DNA of 62,232 bases. It comes from Cryomorphaceae bacterium. GTDB taxonomy: Bacteria; Bacteroidota; Bacteroidia; Flavobacteriales; Schleiferiaceae. Made by a program: the position numbers and the translations under genes. The stretch is taken from assembly GCA_003566715.1 (NCBI GenBank), contig PXCF01000009.1, forward strand, positions 1 to 62,232, given 5' to 3'. The notes under the pieces are model-generated. The model was not told the origin of the DNA, did no database searches, and saw nothing but the letters and a program-made list of their open reading frames with translations. Positions 34,635-61,563 of the stretch are shown in pieces. Numbering within the stretch: position 1 is the first letter of the stretch; the number at the start of each line of letters is the position of its first letter.

Positions 34635-36119
34635 ATGAAAAAAAAATACATACTTCTTCTTTTAAGTGGGCTTTTCTTTACCATAAATCTAATTGGACAA
34701 AGCTACCCCCTTCCAGAGTTGATATATTACAAGTTTGATGAAGATCCGCTTATTGTCAACGATGCCTCTAATCCCGTTGGCGTAAATCCAACTTTAATCA
34801 TTGGCAACGGCTTAACTTTAGGAGGGACCGGTATGTTTGGAACCGCTCTTCAGGGAACGGGAACGCCTAGTTCAACCAATAGAATAAGTACGGGGTGGGC
34901 GACTTCTCTTACTTCTTCATTTACCATAGGATTCTGGTCTAATATCACTACACCGAGCTCTACGCTGTGGTATATTTTTGGTGATAATACGGCATCCAGC
35001 TTTCGTTGTTTAACCAATGGTTCTGCAGGAGCTAATAACTGGATGTTGAGTTGCTTTAGCTGTGGCATGCCTGATGTAATTGCATTTAATGGAGCGGATT
35101 CTGGGGCTAATTACACACACTTTGTTTATGATGCGACAGCGTCTATGATGCGTGCATATGTCAATGGTGTAAAAGTTGATTCAGCGAATGTTATTGGTAA
35201 TGTGACATTATCAGGAAATAATTTTACCGTTGGCGCATATGGTTCAAGTACAGGTTTGTCCGGCTCTATGGATGAATTTAGACTATACAGTCGCGCGTTA
35301 ACCGATGCGGAAATTTTAGCAACGTACAACATTGAGTTAGGTGCCTGCTCAATGCCTACGAACGTTACCCTCGATTCTGCAGGTTGTGACGAACTAACCA
35401 TTTCTTGGGATTCCGATACAGGTGTTGTTGCAAGCTATTTAGAATACGGTCCTCCGGGTTTTATGCCAGGAACTGGAACATCGGTTTTAGCCTCAACAAA
35501 CCCTTTTACACTTTCAGGTTTATCACCAAACACCTTTTATGATATTTATGTGAGTGACAGTTGTTCACGTGGTCTAAGTGCGCCAAGCGATAGTTTGCCT
35601 GCATCTACCATACCACTTCCTTTGGGTTCTTTTACTTCGGTAGTTGTAGCGGTTACATTTAATGATGTTACTTATGAATTTGATGCATCGGCTTCAACAA
35701 ACACCAATTTTTATAATTGGGATTTTGGCGATGGTAACACAGGTACAGGAATGGTAACCAATCATACGTACACAGTAGATTCAAATTATACGGTAACGTT
35801 GGAAACGGAAGGTGAATGTGGTATAACTACCTTTACACAACCTATTATCGTTCGTGGTATTTCCGTAGATACTTGGGATGCACAAGGGTTTAAAACCCAA
35901 CCTAATCCTGTAAAAGATATTCTTTTTATTAATGCAAGTCGCTATAAAGGCAAGTCATACCACGTAAAGATTCTCGATATGTCCGGACGCAAGATGTATC
36001 ACGCTCGTGACGTTCAGGGCAATTCTGAAATAAACATGCTGAACCTGCCTGCAGGTACGTATATCTTGAACGTTGACGGTGAAAGTGGCGTTTTTCGACA
36101 AAAGCTTATCAAGCAATAA
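34635..36119 (+). CDS. Secreted LamG/FnIII/PKD protein with T9SS type A sorting domain, copy 1
   Basis: 494 residues. A signal peptide (LLLSGLFFTINLIGQ) is followed by a LamG/concanavalin-like lectin fold at about 25-235 (MDEFRLYSRALTDAEILATYN at its end). A fibronectin III-like domain covers 240-325 (LSPNTFYDIYVSDSC) and a PKD domain 330-405 (YNWDFGDGNTGTG). The C-terminal type A sorting domain contains NPVKDILFINASRYKGKSY and NLPAGTYILNVDGESGV. The sorting domain sends it through the type IX system to the surface or medium. LamG suggests carbohydrate or protein binding; there is no catalytic domain. It is the tandem paralogue of the next gene. Confidence 0.9.
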   Translation: MKKKYILLLLSGLFFTINLIGQSYPLPELIYYKFDEDPLIVNDASNPVGVNPTLIIGNGLTLGGTGMFGTALQGTGTPSSTNRISTGWATSLTSSFTIGFWSNITTPSSTLWYIFGDNTASSFRCLTNGSAGANNWMLSCFSCGMPDVIAFNGADSGANYTHFVYDATASMMRAYVNGVKVDSANVIGNVTLSGNNFTVGAYGSSTGLSGSMDEFRLYSRALTDAEILATYNIELGACSMPTNVTLDSAGCDELTISWDSDTGVVASYLEYGPPGFMPGTGTSVLASTNPFTLSGLSPNTFYDIYVSDSCSRGLSAPSDSLPASTIPLPLGSFTSVVVAVTFNDVTYEFDASASTNTNFYNWDFGDGNTGTGMVTNHTYTVDSNYTVTLETEGECGITTFTQPIIVRGISVDTWDAQGFKTQPNPVKDILFINASRYKGKSYHVKILDMSGRKMYHARDVQGNSEINMLNLPAGTYILNVDGESGVFRQKLIKQ

Positions 36120-36230
36120 TCAAAAATCCATTTAATAAGACGTTTCAATTTACCTCACTTGACGCTTTTTTTTCAAACGTGTAAAAAGTATTTTAACAAC
36201 CAAAAAATGAATGTATTTGGTTTTTATTTG

Positions 36231-36238
36231 TAGATTTG
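36231..36238 (+). promoter_or_regulatory. -7 element of the second LamG/T9SS gene
   Basis: TAGATTTG at 36231-36238, 32 bases before the ATG at 36271. The second copy therefore probably has its own promoter and is not just read through from copy 1. Confidence 0.4.
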
Positions 36239-36270
36239 TGCCATTAGATATTAATTAAAAATCACTCGTC

Positions 36271-37749
36271 ATGAATAAAATTTATTCGCTTTTGGTTCTG
36301 GGCGGACTTTCATTAAGTCTCAATCTTTTTGGACAAGCGGTTCCCGAACTTATTTATTACAAGTTTGATTCCGGTTCAAGCATTGTCAACGATGCATCCA
36401 GTCCTGTTGGGACCAATCCCACAACCATTACAGGTACAACGCTTACCGTTGGAGGAACGGGGATGTTTGGAACAGCACTTTTGGGTACAGGAGGAACGAG
36501 TTCGGCACACAGAATTGCCACGGGTTGGGCGACTTCTTTGAGTTCGTCCTTCACCATTGGCTTTTGGACAGATAACATCACGTCCAGTTCAACCTTGTGG
36601 TATGTATTTGGAGACAATACAGCTTCAAGTTTACGTTGCTTCACAAATGGTGTAGCCGGCGCCAATAACTGGTTGTTGCGTTGTACCGGCTGCGGAATGC
36701 CGGATATTACAGCCACCAATGGTGCCACGACTGGTTCAAACTACACGCACTTTGTGTATGATGCAACGGCTTCAATGATGCGTGCCTATGTGAATGGTGT
36801 CAAAGTTGATTCTGCTGCAGTTACAGGAACTGTTTCTCTGTCCGGAACAGAATTTACCGTTGGTGCATATGCATCTAGTTCAGGTTTATCGGGCTCCATG
36901 GACGAGTTTAGACTTTACAACCGCGCTCTCAGCGATGCAGAAATTTTAGCGACATATAATATTGAGTTAGGAGGTTGTTCATCGCCTGATAATGTCGCAC
37001 TTGACACTGCCGGTTGTGATGAACTCACCATCTCATGGGATTCCGACACAGCCGCAGTTGGAAGCGTTGTTGAATATGGTCCTACTGGCTTCACCCCGGG
37101 AACAGGAACAACAGTTTTTACTGCGTCAAGTCCTTTTACCATTACCGGTTTGTCACCCAGCATGGATTATGATATTTATGTGAGTGATAGCTGTACCAGT
37201 GGCCTAAGTGCGCCAAGTGATAGTTTGCCTGCCTCTACTTTACCTCTACCTGTCGGTTCATTTACTTCAACCGTAGTGACGGTAACGTTTAATGATGCTG
37301 AATATGAGTTTGACGCAACGGCTTCAACCGATGCCAATACCTATAACTGGGATTTTGGCGATGGTAACACAGGTACGGGAATGGTGGTCAATCATACGTA
37401 TACGATGGATTCAACCTATACGGTAACATTGGTAACGGAAGGTGACTGTGGATTTGATACCATTTCGGAACCGGTTGTTGTTCGTGGTATTTCCGTAGAT
37501 ACTTGGGATGCACAAGGATTTAAAACGCATCCCAATCCTGTAAAAGATGTTCTCTTTATCAATGCCAGTCGTTATAAAGGTCAGTCCTATAGCGTTACAC
37601 TTGTCGACATGTCTGGACGTATGATGTATCACGCTCGTGATGTTCAGGGCAATTCTGAAATAAACATGCAGAACCTACCTGCAGGTACGTATATTTTGAA
37701 CGTTGACGGTGAAAGTGGCATGTACCGACAAAACGTCATCAAGCAATAA
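36271..37749 (+). CDS. Secreted LamG/FnIII/PKD protein with T9SS type A sorting domain, copy 2
   Basis: 492 residues with the same order as its neighbour: signal peptide, LamG, FnIII, PKD, type A sorting domain. The two align end to end with few gaps. Near-identical stretches include THFVYDATASMMRAYVNGVK, YNWDFGDGNTGTGM and RGISVDTWDAQGFKT, with DNA identity highest at the 3' end. The divergence is concentrated in loops of LamG and FnIII. It is presumably an adhesin or matrix protein. It ends in a bidirectional terminator shared with the convergent phosphohexomutase gene. Confidence 0.9.
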   Translation: MNKIYSLLVLGGLSLSLNLFGQAVPELIYYKFDSGSSIVNDASSPVGTNPTTITGTTLTVGGTGMFGTALLGTGGTSSAHRIATGWATSLSSSFTIGFWTDNITSSSTLWYVFGDNTASSLRCFTNGVAGANNWLLRCTGCGMPDITATNGATTGSNYTHFVYDATASMMRAYVNGVKVDSAAVTGTVSLSGTEFTVGAYASSSGLSGSMDEFRLYNRALSDAEILATYNIELGGCSSPDNVALDTAGCDELTISWDSDTAAVGSVVEYGPTGFTPGTGTTVFTASSPFTITGLSPSMDYDIYVSDSCTSGLSAPSDSLPASTLPLPVGSFTSTVVTVTFNDAEYEFDATASTDANTYNWDFGDGNTGTGMVVNHTYTMDSTYTVTLVTEGDCGFDTISEPVVVRGISVDTWDAQGFKTHPNPVKDVLFINASRYKGQSYSVTLVDMSGRMMYHARDVQGNSEINMQNLPAGTYILNVDGESGMYRQNVIKQ

Positions 37750-57410: not shown

Positions 57411-57881
57411 TTAGTTTTGTTCAGCTTTTTCTTCGACAATGTCCCATGTGTGGTCGGCGAGAAGTTTGACGGAGTAGACGAAGTGTCCCGGCGGGTTGGA
57501 GCGTCCCCATTCTTCGGGGCCTACCATCGACAAGACGAAGGGGTATTCTGCTTCTTTGTCGTCTTTTTGGTAGAGGTGGTAAACGTGATTGATTTCCGGT
57601 TTAAAGCCCATTTTGGCGAGGTAGATCATCTCCGAAAGGGTCTTGCGTTCTTGAATGGCCTGTGCCTGTTTGGCCAGCAAATCAATCTGTTGTTTTATTT
57701 GGTCGAGCTGACGGTCGGTTTGCTCTTCCATGGCCGACAGCGCGCGGCTCTTGTTTTTCTTCAAGTCATCCGGTCGAATCACCGCTCCACCAACGGTATG
57801 CGCATACGGAAGCGTGGAAGGGTTCTCGGTAATCTTATCCTCGTCGATCGGATTGATGATGTTCTTTTTGTCTTTGGACAC
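57411..57881 (-). CDS. DUF2452 domain protein
   Basis: 156 residues from a GTG at 57881. The family pattern is clear: LPYAHTVGGAVIRPDDLKK, SAMEEQTDRQLDQIKQQIDLLAKQAQAIQERK, YLAKMGFKPEINHVYHLYQK, and VLSMVGPEEWGR with VKLLADHTWD. The function of DUF2452 is unknown; it looks soluble with a coiled-coil middle. A TTG at 57899 gives a longer frame, but the TATTTTTG box at 57904-57897 covers that codon, so GTG is preferred. Its promoter region is duplicated 2160 bases away on the far side of the AlbA_2 gene. Confidence 0.82.
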   Translation of the reverse strand: MSKDKKNIINPIDEDKITENPSTLPYAHTVGGAVIRPDDLKKNKSRALSAMEEQTDRQLDQIKQQIDLLAKQAQAIQERKTLSEMIYLAKMGFKPEINHVYHLYQKDDKEAEYPFVLSMVGPEEWGRSNPPGHFVYSVKLLADHTWDIVEEKAEQN

Positions 57882-57890
57882 AGTGAATAT

Positions 57891-57976
57891 TTTTTGCAAA
57901 AATAACGGTTGTAAGCGTACGGTCTATTGGTAAACGCGTTGAATTGGATAACACAGGGGAGAGGGGGAGGTTCATT
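57891..57976 (+). repeat. 86-base direct repeat, left copy
   Basis: Matches 60051-60136 at 83 of 86 positions (differences at 57947, 57955 and 57957), exactly 2160 bases apart. Both ends are sharp. It contains the presumed -7 box of the DUF2452 gene (TATTTTTG on the minus strand). The 301-base gap 57882-58182 holds this copy and about 200 bases in which I see nothing else. Confidence 0.95.
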
Positions 57977-58182
57977 TTACATATAAACGCAAGTTTCTTT
58001 TTCTAAGATAAGCAATGAACCTTTCAATCATTCAAAATCAAATCAAACCTAATGTTCCCCGGTAATTGTTCTAATTTCTTATTCATAACTTCTTAGTACT
58101 ACAGCTGTCGGACATTTTCCTGAACGGAGAGAGTCTTTTTATAATGATTTGATTTGTCTTTGTTTGCGAAATACCCTATTTT

Positions 58183-59874
58183 TCATATTGCGCCACCCCC
58201 TAAAAATAACTTTCCTCGGTTTGTGATTATATATTGTTGATTAGGGTCATTTGCCTGTTCCAATGTGTATTGAATCAATTTATTGTCTTTTAATGGCTTT
58301 ACATAATCATCTCGATAGCGTTCTCTGCTTCGATAGCCTAATGCATTTGCCAATTCATCAAGCGATATGGGAGTAAAAGTGAGCAATAGTGTACTCAATA
58401 ATACCCTTGCTCTTTTTTTTAGTAACTCCCCACTTTTTTCAGACCAACTCCCCACTTTTTTTAACTCATCAACTGTTAATTCATTGTTTGTCAGAAACCT
58501 CAATCCTGACAGCTTCCCACTTTTTTTAGACCAGCTCCCTACTAATAGTGTGGCGAGTTCATCCAAATCATCTATGTTTTTGAGATTCAAATCTAGAGGG
58601 AGTTCTTGAAGTGCTCTGGTTTTCTCAGCATCTAATAGTTTATCTGATAGTTGAGCAAGGTGTAGGAATAAAGGTGCTTTTGCACCTACCTTTTGCAGCA
58701 ACATAGGTATGGTGCTTTTAAATGGCTCATCTTCTATAAATATCGGATGTGCCCCACCTGTGTAATTAGCTACAAACTTGTTCATATTTCGAACGCCTGA
58801 CCCAATTTCATCAGCCCAAGTAAGGATATTAAAAAATGCGCGTATGTTTGGGTTCTTTGGTTCTGCCTCAAAGGTTTCTAAGTCTAAAGGCCCAGTAAAT
58901 CGTCTTCGATTTGGATTGGTGGCCTCAACACGGTCTTCGTAAATAACTACTTGTGTTGGAGTGGCACTGTTATACTCTCGGTGAATGATAATGTTTGCCA
59001 CAAGTTCACGGAAAATTAGCTCACGCAAATCTTTGCGGTTTCCATCTGCATCTTGCCAAAACTTTTCCGGCCAGTGATCTTTGATAAATTGCATGGATTG
59101 AAGGTAAGAATCTATGAGGTTGGTTTTTAGTAAAAGCCGGTCATCATAGCGGTCTTTATTCTCCCTGCGAACCAAAATATCTATACGGTATGCAGGTAAT
59201 AAATTGCCAATAACTTCATCTGTGCCAAATACTAAAGCAGCCGCTAAAGTCAAGCCTTCTTCACCTGTTGTAAAGTCCTTGCGAAGAAAGCGTGCATCTC
59301 TTAAAATACGCTCATTTGAATAACCGGTAGCAAGCCAAGGGTGGTTGGCATTAACCAAAGCTACTCTTGACTTAACCTGATCAAAAAGTGTTGGGTCTAA
59401 ATCTCCAACACACAAATTTGGAAATATTTGGTTTTCTGAAAATACATTTCGCTTACGAGCATACATTTCAGAAATTCGCGCCTCATCAGTAATTCTAAAA
59501 TCACTGTCGTTTTCACGGTCGTAAATTATCTGGCCGTGTTTGTGGACAAATGAGCTAACGGGTACACGGATATAAAGTATGATCTCATTATTATGAACCA
59601 CTTCATTTACAGCCAATGGAAATGGAGGGTTAATTACATCTGGGTTATTTAAAGCCGTCACAATATTTTGCTTGAGTTGCATGAGGTTTTGTTGATTTAT
59701 GCCCAACACATTGCCACCATCATCTATACCTAAAAGAATGACGCCTCCTTCACGGTTTAGAAAAGCAGAAACCGTATCATATAAGGTGTCAGGAACGCCA
59801 TTTTTTGCCTCTTTAAATTCAATACGCAGACCTTCTCCCAATGCTAAAATTCTATATAATTCTTTTGTTTCCAT
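58183..59874 (-). CDS. Schlafen/AlbA_2-type ATP-binding protein in a repeat-bounded module
   Basis: 563 residues. The AlbA_2 (Schlafen-like) domain at about 10-130 has LRIEFKEAKNGVPDTLYDTVSAFLNREGGVILLGIDDGG. A RecG-like GHKL ATP-binding region at about 280-390 has LRELIFRELVANIIIHREYN, VEATNPNRRRFTGPLDLE and WADEIGSGVRNMNKF. The C-terminus is a winged helix (LANALGYRSRERYRDDYVKPL). Such proteins are often transcription regulators or phage-defence components. Between the ATPase and the winged helix is a short internal repeat, VGSWSKKSGKL and VGSWSEKSGEL. The gene is more AT-rich than the core genes and is enclosed by 86-base direct repeats. Confidence 0.88.
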   Translation of the reverse strand: METKELYRILALGEGLRIEFKEAKNGVPDTLYDTVSAFLNREGGVILLGIDDGGNVLGINQQNLMQLKQNIVTALNNPDVINPPFPLAVNEVVHNNEIILYIRVPVSSFVHKHGQIIYDRENDSDFRITDEARISEMYARKRNVFSENQIFPNLCVGDLDPTLFDQVKSRVALVNANHPWLATGYSNERILRDARFLRKDFTTGEEGLTLAAALVFGTDEVIGNLLPAYRIDILVRRENKDRYDDRLLLKTNLIDSYLQSMQFIKDHWPEKFWQDADGNRKDLRELIFRELVANIIIHREYNSATPTQVVIYEDRVEATNPNRRRFTGPLDLETFEAEPKNPNIRAFFNILTWADEIGSGVRNMNKFVANYTGGAHPIFIEDEPFKSTIPMLLQKVGAKAPLFLHLAQLSDKLLDAEKTRALQELPLDLNLKNIDDLDELATLLVGSWSKKSGKLSGLRFLTNNELTVDELKKVGSWSEKSGELLKKRARVLLSTLLLTFTPISLDELANALGYRSRERYRDDYVKPLKDNKLIQYTLEQANDPNQQYIITNRGKLFLGGGAI

Positions 59875-60264
59875 GTTAAGTCACACTATTTTTCAGAGAA
59901 ATTGCTTTAAATAACAAACATACATATTTATTTTCCGGTAATACTGTTTACTAAAGGTATTGAATTCGACAGATGTAAAATCTGGTTTGTGTAAGTTTTC
60001 CACAGTCCAGTAAATTTCTCAGTGTTTATGTTACTTAACCAATTTGACTGTTTTTGCAAAAATAACGGTTGTAAGCGTACGGTCTATTGGTAAACGCGTT
60101 GAATTGAATAACACGGTGGAGAGGGGGAGGTTCATTGGGGGGCTTGCTCTAGCACTTAAAAATATTATGATATTTATAATCTGATTTAAAATGAATTACA
60201 TTTATTCATGTTTTATAAAGTTAAAATTAATTCTAATTTCAAATTGTCCTAATTTTGGGGAAGG
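59875..60264. other. Gene-free AT-rich gap with the right direct repeat
   Basis: This 390-base stretch holds the upstream region of the AlbA_2 gene, the right 86-base repeat, and about 130 bases of very AT-rich sequence (60137-60264) in which I recognise no gene, structure or promoter with confidence. Confidence 0.6.
60051..60136 (+). repeat. 86-base direct repeat, right copy
   Basis: Second copy of 57891-57976, with three substitutions and no gaps. Flanks on both sides differ from the left copy. It lies 177 bases upstream of the AlbA_2 start, on the side from which that gene is transcribed, and carries the same TATTTTTG box (minus strand, 60064-60057). Confidence 0.95.
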
Positions 60265-60389
60265 TTACAAAGGGCTGTTGTTGAACTTTTCTTCAAATTG
60301 ATGGTCTCAAAATTGCTTAAGAATTTCAGCGAACCCTGCCTCATCAACCTTAAAGGGCTTTTTACAATTTGAACATTTTTTTCATTCAT
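60265..60389 (-). pseudogene. Truncated DUF2130 gene remnant
   Basis: On the minus strand, MNE at 60389 followed after a frameshift by KKCSNCKKPFKVDEAGFAEILKQ, then a stop at 60309-60307 and DHQFEEKFNN. This resembles the N-terminus of DUF2130 proteins (CPxCxKxFKxDEAGxADILKQVRDHQFE). Two lesions are visible: one A missing from the A-run near 60380, and an Arg codon turned to TGA. After about 35 codons homology ends. The ATG overlaps the stop of the upstream unknown gene, so the two once formed an operon. Confidence 0.65.
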
Positions 60390-61137
60390 TATCTAAAAGG
60401 TATTTTTTTATTCTATCTACAGTTGTATTTGAAGCCTTAATTTTTGCTTCTTTGAAATATTCTTTGATATTTGCTTTTGTTACTTTGTTTAAATTTTTTT
60501 GCTTAAGCCATGATTGGTACTCACTTGCCCAATTAGCCCAATTAGCTTCTTCAATTTCCTTAAAGTTTATTTCAATTAATTCTCTGGCTAAGGACTCAGC
60601 TTCATAAATGTTTTCTCTGATTATATCTGGAATCTCCCATTGATCTACTAGCCCAATTGAATTCCAATATTTGGATTTTGCACTTGAGTATAGTGAACGA
60701 TCAAACCCTTTACTTAATTCCGGAAACTTTTTTAATGAATAGTTAAATATCTCATTCTGAAGGTCTTTAACGGTAAGATTTTTTAAATACTTAATTGCAT
60801 TCTTTTGACTTTCTTTTTGTTCTTCTAAAAGGTGGGATAGGAAATAGTCATCTTTATTTGTGTTTTCTGGCAATAAATCCGCAGAACCAATTTCAATTTT
60901 TTTGTATTGAAAATTTCTATTCAATTTAATTGCAAAATATGCAGCTTCGAGTCTATCAACTTCACTTAACGATTGGTCTGAAGAGAAATTAATCAGTATG
61001 TTGTACAAATCTTCGTATTTTCCATCTTGAATATTTTGTTCGATTGCTAATGGGATTTTAAATTCATCAATTGGCTTGAAATCTTTTGGAGAAAAAGAAA
61101 GATCTTCCATTAACTTTATTTTCGATTCAATCTTCAT
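60382..61137 (-). CDS. Uncharacterised AT-rich gene
   Basis: 251 residues from the ATG at 61137 (MKIESKIKLMEDLSFSPKDF). Charged, mostly helical, with no signal or membrane segment; lysine- and asparagine-rich with A/T-ending codons, unlike the core genes. The C-terminus (WASEYQSWLKQKNLNKVTKANIKEYFKEAKIKASNTTVDRIKKYLLDNE) could form a helix-turn-helix. The frame stays open to 61368; a TTG at 61287 would add a segment with CLCERHEKC, which could bind zinc, while the part beyond 61287 is repeat-like and unlikely to be coding. The 3' end overlaps the broken DUF2130 gene. No family is recognised. Confidence 0.6.
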   Translation of the reverse strand: MKIESKIKLMEDLSFSPKDFKPIDEFKIPLAIEQNIQDGKYEDLYNILINFSSDQSLSEVDRLEAAYFAIKLNRNFQYKKIEIGSADLLPENTNKDDYFLSHLLEEQKESQKNAIKYLKNLTVKDLQNEIFNYSLKKFPELSKGFDRSLYSSAKSKYWNSIGLVDQWEIPDIIRENIYEAESLARELIEINFKEIEEANWANWASEYQSWLKQKNLNKVTKANIKEYFKEAKIKASNTTVDRIKKYLLDNE

Positions 61138-61563
61138 TTTATATTTATTAAATACACCATAACTCGTTTCAATATGTGCACTTTTTTTCACAACATATCC
61201 CAAATCGGTATATTTTGTGCACTTTTCGTGTCTTTCACAAAGACAAATATACCCATAATTACTCAAAACTTTCGTTTCATTTTTCAACAGGTTATGCAAG
61301 GGGCTGGGGAGCTGGGGAGAACGGAGGCATGGAGGCACGGGAGTACGGAAGCGGGGGTCTTTAACCACGAATCACACGAATAGGAAAGTATTATAAAATG
61401 GCTTAGTTGTCCTAAGTTCACTTAGCCCGCTCAGCCGCTCAAATGATATCTCTCCCGGACAAAAACATGATGATAAATCCCATCCCCAAAAAAAACGCCA
61501 TATACAAAATACGTTAAAGCCCATACGACCATTCGTCAAACCCGACAACAGACAACAGACTCA
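61138..61563. other. Intergenic region with G-rich tracts
   Basis: This 426-base stretch contains the possible N-terminal extension of the unknown gene, then GGGG tracts at 61300-61317 followed by GGAGGCATGGAGGCACGGGA-type repeats and another G5 near 61352, and a CGACAACAGACAACAGAC repeat at 61543-61560. A 20-codon hydrophobic minus-strand frame (61501-61439, MAFFLGMGF...) is the only other open frame of note. Confidence 0.5.

Follow-up and report, generated by a model that had tools for sequence, protein, structure and literature searches.

A single gene between direct repeats upstream of DUF2452

The analyzed window, a stretch of 62,232 nucleotides from a Cryomorphaceae bacterium, contains two direct repeats of 86 nt each, which have the same orientation and sharp ends, are identical at 83 of 86 positions, and are spaced exactly 2160 nt apart. 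Coordinates, identity and spacing of the original prediction were all reproduced, and its claim that one gene is enclosed was borne out by a 563-aa open reading frame, the sole intact gene between the repeats. The locus has the following features.

57411 to 57881, minus strand: target gene DUF2452 (PF10504), probable GTG start
57891 to 57976, minus strand: left direct repeat, adjoining DUF2452 and holding its putative promoter core; conserved with the closest relative up to 57905
57897 to 57904, minus strand: -7-like element TATTTTTG, which fits TAnnTTTG and is conserved in the closest relative in the form TATATTTG; putative promoter element
58183 to 59874, minus strand: cargo gene for an AlbA_2 (Schlafen core)-HATPase_c_4 (GHKL-like)-winged-helix-like protein of 563 aa with TrlG-like architecture; 39% GC
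60051 to 60136, minus strand: right direct repeat, which brings a second copy of the putative promoter core in front of the AlbA_2 gene; 83/86 identical to the left repeat
60057 to 60064, minus strand: right copy of the -7-like element, reading toward the AlbA_2 gene; putative promoter element
60382 to 61251, minus strand: AT-rich orphan gene (about 27-31% GC), immediately past the right repeat

A self-comparison of the whole window recovered the repeat pair with a BLAST E-value of 7e-34, and the only other direct repeats were a 58-bp pair and a tandem paralog pair at 34.7-37.7 kb. The latter consists of adjoining genes of about 490 aa each (34635-37749), which are 76% identical at the DNA level. 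The 86-bp repeat does not occur at many unrelated promoters: the genome (2.46 Mb, draft) contains two copies, and all remaining matches are 14-32 bp long, so a dispersed repeat was rejected. The three mismatches between the copies are at 57947, 57955, and 57957 and are thus all located inside 11 nt (P = 0.035 for random placement), and the longest identical run is 56 bp, on the target side. From about 43-54% in the flanking DNA, the GC content falls to 31-43% in the cargo, and it is 27-31% in the gene that follows. The draft assembly comprises 153 contigs and its nearest named relative is a metagenome-assembled genome, which leaves room for an assembly artefact. However, the copies differ at three sites, the four flanks of the two copies are all different, no identical stretch exceeds 56 bp, and the composition shifts match foreign DNA, so that an artefact is extremely improbable.

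As originally predicted, no integrase or transposase could be recognized, either in the enclosed segment or close to it. An inverted pair at the ends of the repeat-bounded segment was likewise not found. A transposon or insertion sequence was rejected because a transposase and terminal inverted repeats are lacking and because the duplication is not short, but comprises 86 bp.

The duplicated promoter region and the relatives of the locus

DUF2452 is widespread across the family. Its start codon in the window is probably the GTG at 57881. The closest relative (L059, a metagenome-assembled genome of Cryomorphaceae) has an ATG that lies a few codons farther upstream. DNA similarity between both genomes spans DUF2452 and stops at 57905, 15 nt inside the left repeat, over TATTTTTGCAAAAA in the window and TATATTTGCAAAAA in the relative. 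The -7 element of Bacteroidota has the consensus TAnnTTTG. Because TATTTTTGCAAAAA/TATATTTGCAAAAA fits this element, the promoter core of DUF2452 appears to lie in the left repeat, with a copy in the right repeat that faces the cargo. The overlap of the left repeat with the DUF2452 promoter and the duplication of its core, which provides the cargo with its own copy, had both been predicted and agree with these results. The cargo may be expressed from the duplicated promoter. Both ends of the inserted segment abut copies of the DUF2452 5'-flank, the promoter core of which is homologous to the relative, while the other 70 nt of the repeat are conserved in no other of the five genomes in the genus.

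In L059 the gene order DUF2452-hypothetical-NUDIX is kept, but the AlbA_2 gene and the repeat are both missing, and a Fur-like gene, as judged from its reading frame, is found upstream of DUF2452 instead. Thus, relatives do not all carry the same gene, and the predicted insertion-like structure with a single foreign gene is supported. The nearest genome is only 74% identical to the window in DNA. The 86-bp repeat is known from this genome alone, in a comparison with five genomes in the genus, none of which is from the same species. Among 32 DUF2452 loci of relatives, including a few duplicates from the same genome, none has a repeat that flanks an insertion, and the proposal that DUF2452 is a hot spot could thus not be upheld. 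One repeat that adjoins DUF2452 in a relative (L075) is hairpin-like and was therefore rejected as insertion-flanking.

The cargo is a foreign TrlG-like gene

The AlbA_2 domain of the cargo protein (PF04326, E = 9e-15) and its HATPase_c_4 domain both score above the curated Pfam cut-offs, and a winged-helix-like segment forms the C-terminus. E14, E19, N294, G358, and G360 are invariant in the alignment. An AlphaFold model (pLDDT 80, pTM 0.63) has its best fold match in DIP2311 (PDB 3lmm, E 4.5e-19), and Schlafen structures match too. The whole-chain TM-score is only about 0.36, so that the domains are either oriented differently or poorly modelled. PADLOC yielded only a weak match to an Argonaute model. 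Most likely, the protein is an ATP-dependent nucleic-acid-binding or -cleaving protein for growth arrest or defence, probably against phages in the latter case.

The cargo gene is foreign and has been acquired horizontally. No close homolog was detected among 88 genomes of the family, and the nearest homolog (72% over 560 aa) belongs to another family of the same order. That homolog directly adjoins genes for a MobB relaxase and a MobC/TraG-type coupling protein (L123:5044-9413). A viral origin was rejected, because a search of IMG/VR retrieved no relative and only distant homologs are present in satellite phages. The gene next to the right repeat (60382-61251) has no match in Pfam, PADLOC or NCBIfam; a homolog is absent from the family genomes searched, and weak matches were obtained only in two genomes of the order. 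It is either a separate acquisition or a part of the same variable region as the cargo.

Homologs of the cargo occur on plasmids and mobilizable elements, which would be in line with a Campbell-type event, i.e., the integration of a circle with the AlbA_2 gene and one promoter copy via a single RecA crossover. This would yield exactly two direct copies that differ by the polymorphism between donor and recipient, and the exchange between repeat copies or alleles at recC (see below) is a further point in its favor. However, the circle must already have held the DUF2452 promoter, and none like this was seen. In addition, 86 bp are short for efficient RecA exchange. Taken together, a Campbell-type integration is quite unlikely.

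Repeat-flanked AlbA_2 genes and recC arrays in other genomes

The DNA on either side of AlbA_2 homologs was compared across other genomes, with 38 AlbA_2 loci set against 228 control genes. Three AlbA_2 loci (the window, L136, and L129) are flanked by repeats, compared to two control genes, both of which belong to the genus with the recC arrays described below. The enrichment has a p-value of 0.022 with the window and of 0.095, which is not significant, without it. Therefore, the link between AlbA_2 and flanking repeats is weak, and most AlbA_2 genes arrive otherwise. AlbA_2 as a mobilizing factor was rejected on these numbers, and the repeats are independent of AlbA_2, as other cargo in the recC arrays is flanked as well. 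A family search among relatives of G559 added few AlbA_2 loci and no repeats.

In L136, the AlbA_2 gene has on its left a fragment with the first 146 bp of recC and on its other side a complete recC, and the two copies are 87% identical. Upstream of this fragment, about 100 bp are contiguous with an intact recC in L221, L205, and L206. Therefore, the fragment is the native gene start, while the start of the complete recC came with the cargo. Near this array, a piece of a methyltransferase-like gene is duplicated at 86% identity around another gene (L136:1765-3331). In L129 (5731-8742), an intact glycosyltransferase-like gene, as read from its reading frame, is followed by AlbA_2 and then by a decayed glycosyltransferase remnant, which continues into a C-terminus different from that of the preceding glycosyltransferase. 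The C-terminus of the glycosyltransferase-like gene has been replaced, and the remnant is the old 3' end. The duplicated target pieces of these parallels have differing lengths and are derived from either end of the target gene, in L129 from its 3' part.

The coding repeats in L136 and L129 have diverged by 13-15%. This is not readily explained by an illegitimate insertion in a single step, which would have duplicated 86 bp of the target at an end that was broken or re-replicated, with three point mutations acquired later. The sharp ends of the repeat, its uniqueness and the 97% identity of its copies would fit such an event, but the clustering of the mismatches (P = 0.035) does not, and it is very unlikely.

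A genus-wide search for recC uncovered many extra recC 5' fragments. The genus may be Chlorobium-like, and the identity of recC was verified on the homolog in L212 (PF04257/PF17946). Arrays upstream of recC are present in L212 (2625-10263), L213, L215, L216, L218, L220, and L136. In these arrays, recC 5' fragments of 144-223 bp separate differing defence- or toxin-like cargo, including an AAA-ATPase with an RNA ligase, a ParE-like toxin, a DUF2971 protein, and AlbA_2. Up to three recC fragments are present, as in genome G571, where each is followed by a different cargo and the complete recC is last. The fragment ends are cargo-specific, i.e., 144-146 before AlbA_2, 210-215 before the AAA set, and 218-223 before a cargo that is labelled by its first residues, MAAILP. 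A fragment ending at about +151 has downstream sequence in common with the AAA set and was probably derived from the AAA-set form by deletion. The array order is permuted between genomes of the genus. The cargo-specific ends and the permuted order indicate that recC has received insertions independently at least three times. The same insertion is present in L136 and L216, yet their repeat copies are reciprocally mosaic, with sites 39-69 pairing the fragment of one genome with the full gene of the other, which points to an exchange between repeats or between alleles. The literature searched, which covers part of the published work, contains no description of such arrays at recC.

The parallels also bear on the proposal that the repeats are attL and attR of a site-specific integration, in which a tyrosine recombinase acting in trans moved the cassette and the 5' region of the target was restored. 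The exactness of the repeats, the restored promoter, and the clustering of the mismatches in one part, which leaves 56 identical bases next to the target, would agree with it. The recC fragments nearly all start at the gene start, which would allow for a shared core between +1 and +146. However, a recombinase is absent in or beside the cassette, and neither a second site or cargo nor a second genome with this repeat was found. A fixed att site also fits less well than homology-anchored recombination with the parallels at recC and at the glycosyltransferase gene, which differ in repeat length and in the affected gene end, one being in the 3' part, and which by eye share no inner-end motif. Site-specific integration is therefore unlikely. 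In summary, the structure is real and its reading as an insertion is supported, whereas the att-like and the hot-spot readings of the original prediction are unsupported.

A model of insertion by one-sided homology

Insertion by one-sided homology is an experimentally known process (PMC3240628), and gene arrays in Vibrio have been suggested to arise in this way (PMC5361080). In the parallels, the variable ends, diverged copies and mosaic repeats suggest recombination that is anchored on homology to the target gene and leaves a truncated native copy. Diverged coding repeats of variable length, the restoration of targets at either gene end, and the lack of a recombinase are expected from such a process. 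For the window, one-sided homology seems to be the most economical reading. A TrlG-like AlbA_2 gene, horizontally acquired, would have been inserted 5' of DUF2452 with no dedicated recombinase involved. The DNA that came in would have consisted of this gene and, attached to it, a copy of the promoter region of DUF2452. The target side would have been joined by homologous exchange, and the other end illegitimately, at a point just within the promoter region of the host itself. This would have left the truncated native promoter copy, the right repeat, upstream of the cargo, and the complete promoter with DUF2452, including the left repeat, downstream of it. We infer this route and the native status of the right copy, as no relative is close enough to provide an empty site or a donor allele base by base. 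Two observations speak against it: the sharp distal end of the repeat requires a prior event in the donor, and the small number of just three differing bases is also compatible with a duplication during insertion and subsequent mutation. We assign a probability of about 0.5 to recombination that is anchored on target homology at one side and does not involve a dedicated recombinase.

The arrival of solitary defence-like genes in chromosomes, where neither integrases nor transposases take part, is poorly understood. Duplication of the promoter or start of a target gene would keep the target usable and provide the cargo with a promoter, and the remaining repeats can promote further exchange. It is a tentative and rather doubtful generalization that ordinary genes offer their 5' ends as attachment sites that need no recombinase, at which cargo, once it lies between two copies of the promoter or start of its target, can be excised, moved and stacked by general homologous recombination. 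If true, integron-like arrays of defence cargo could form, as at recC in one genus, and DUF2452 would represent a single step. The recC arrays show that this step can be repeated at one gene, so that the idea can be tested by a comparison of many genomes. They make the mechanism testable and are the more interesting result.

Comparison with known systems

The cargo shares its architecture with TrlG of the temperature-restriction locus of Photorhabdus, which limits growth at higher temperature (PMC7554251), and with DIP2311 (3lmm), i.e., AlbA_2 at about residues 14-128 and HATPase_c_4 near 300-380. However, trlG is part of a trlR-trlF-trlG operon, whereas the window gene is solitary and lacks trlF and trlR.

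Many integrative elements insert in the 5' ends of genes and restore them. They share with the window direct repeats of target sequence and a restored target, but here there is no integrase, the repeat length is variable, and the cargo is a single gene.

Homology-facilitated illegitimate recombination has been described for Acinetobacter, Pseudomonas stutzeri, Streptococcus pneumoniae, and E. coli (PMC3240628, cited in PMC5361080). There too, foreign DNA is gained with homology at only one side, and arrays can be built beside a conserved gene. However, the target segment is doubled here around the cargo, in one genus repeatedly at the same gene, and donor and recipient are putative. The arrays of orphan immunity genes of the type VI secretion system of V. 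cholerae have in common with the recC arrays a serial accretion beside a conserved anchor, for which the same mechanism has been proposed (PMC5361080). While old immunity genes remain in V. cholerae, here the truncated 5' ends of an unrelated housekeeping gene separate defence-like cargo.
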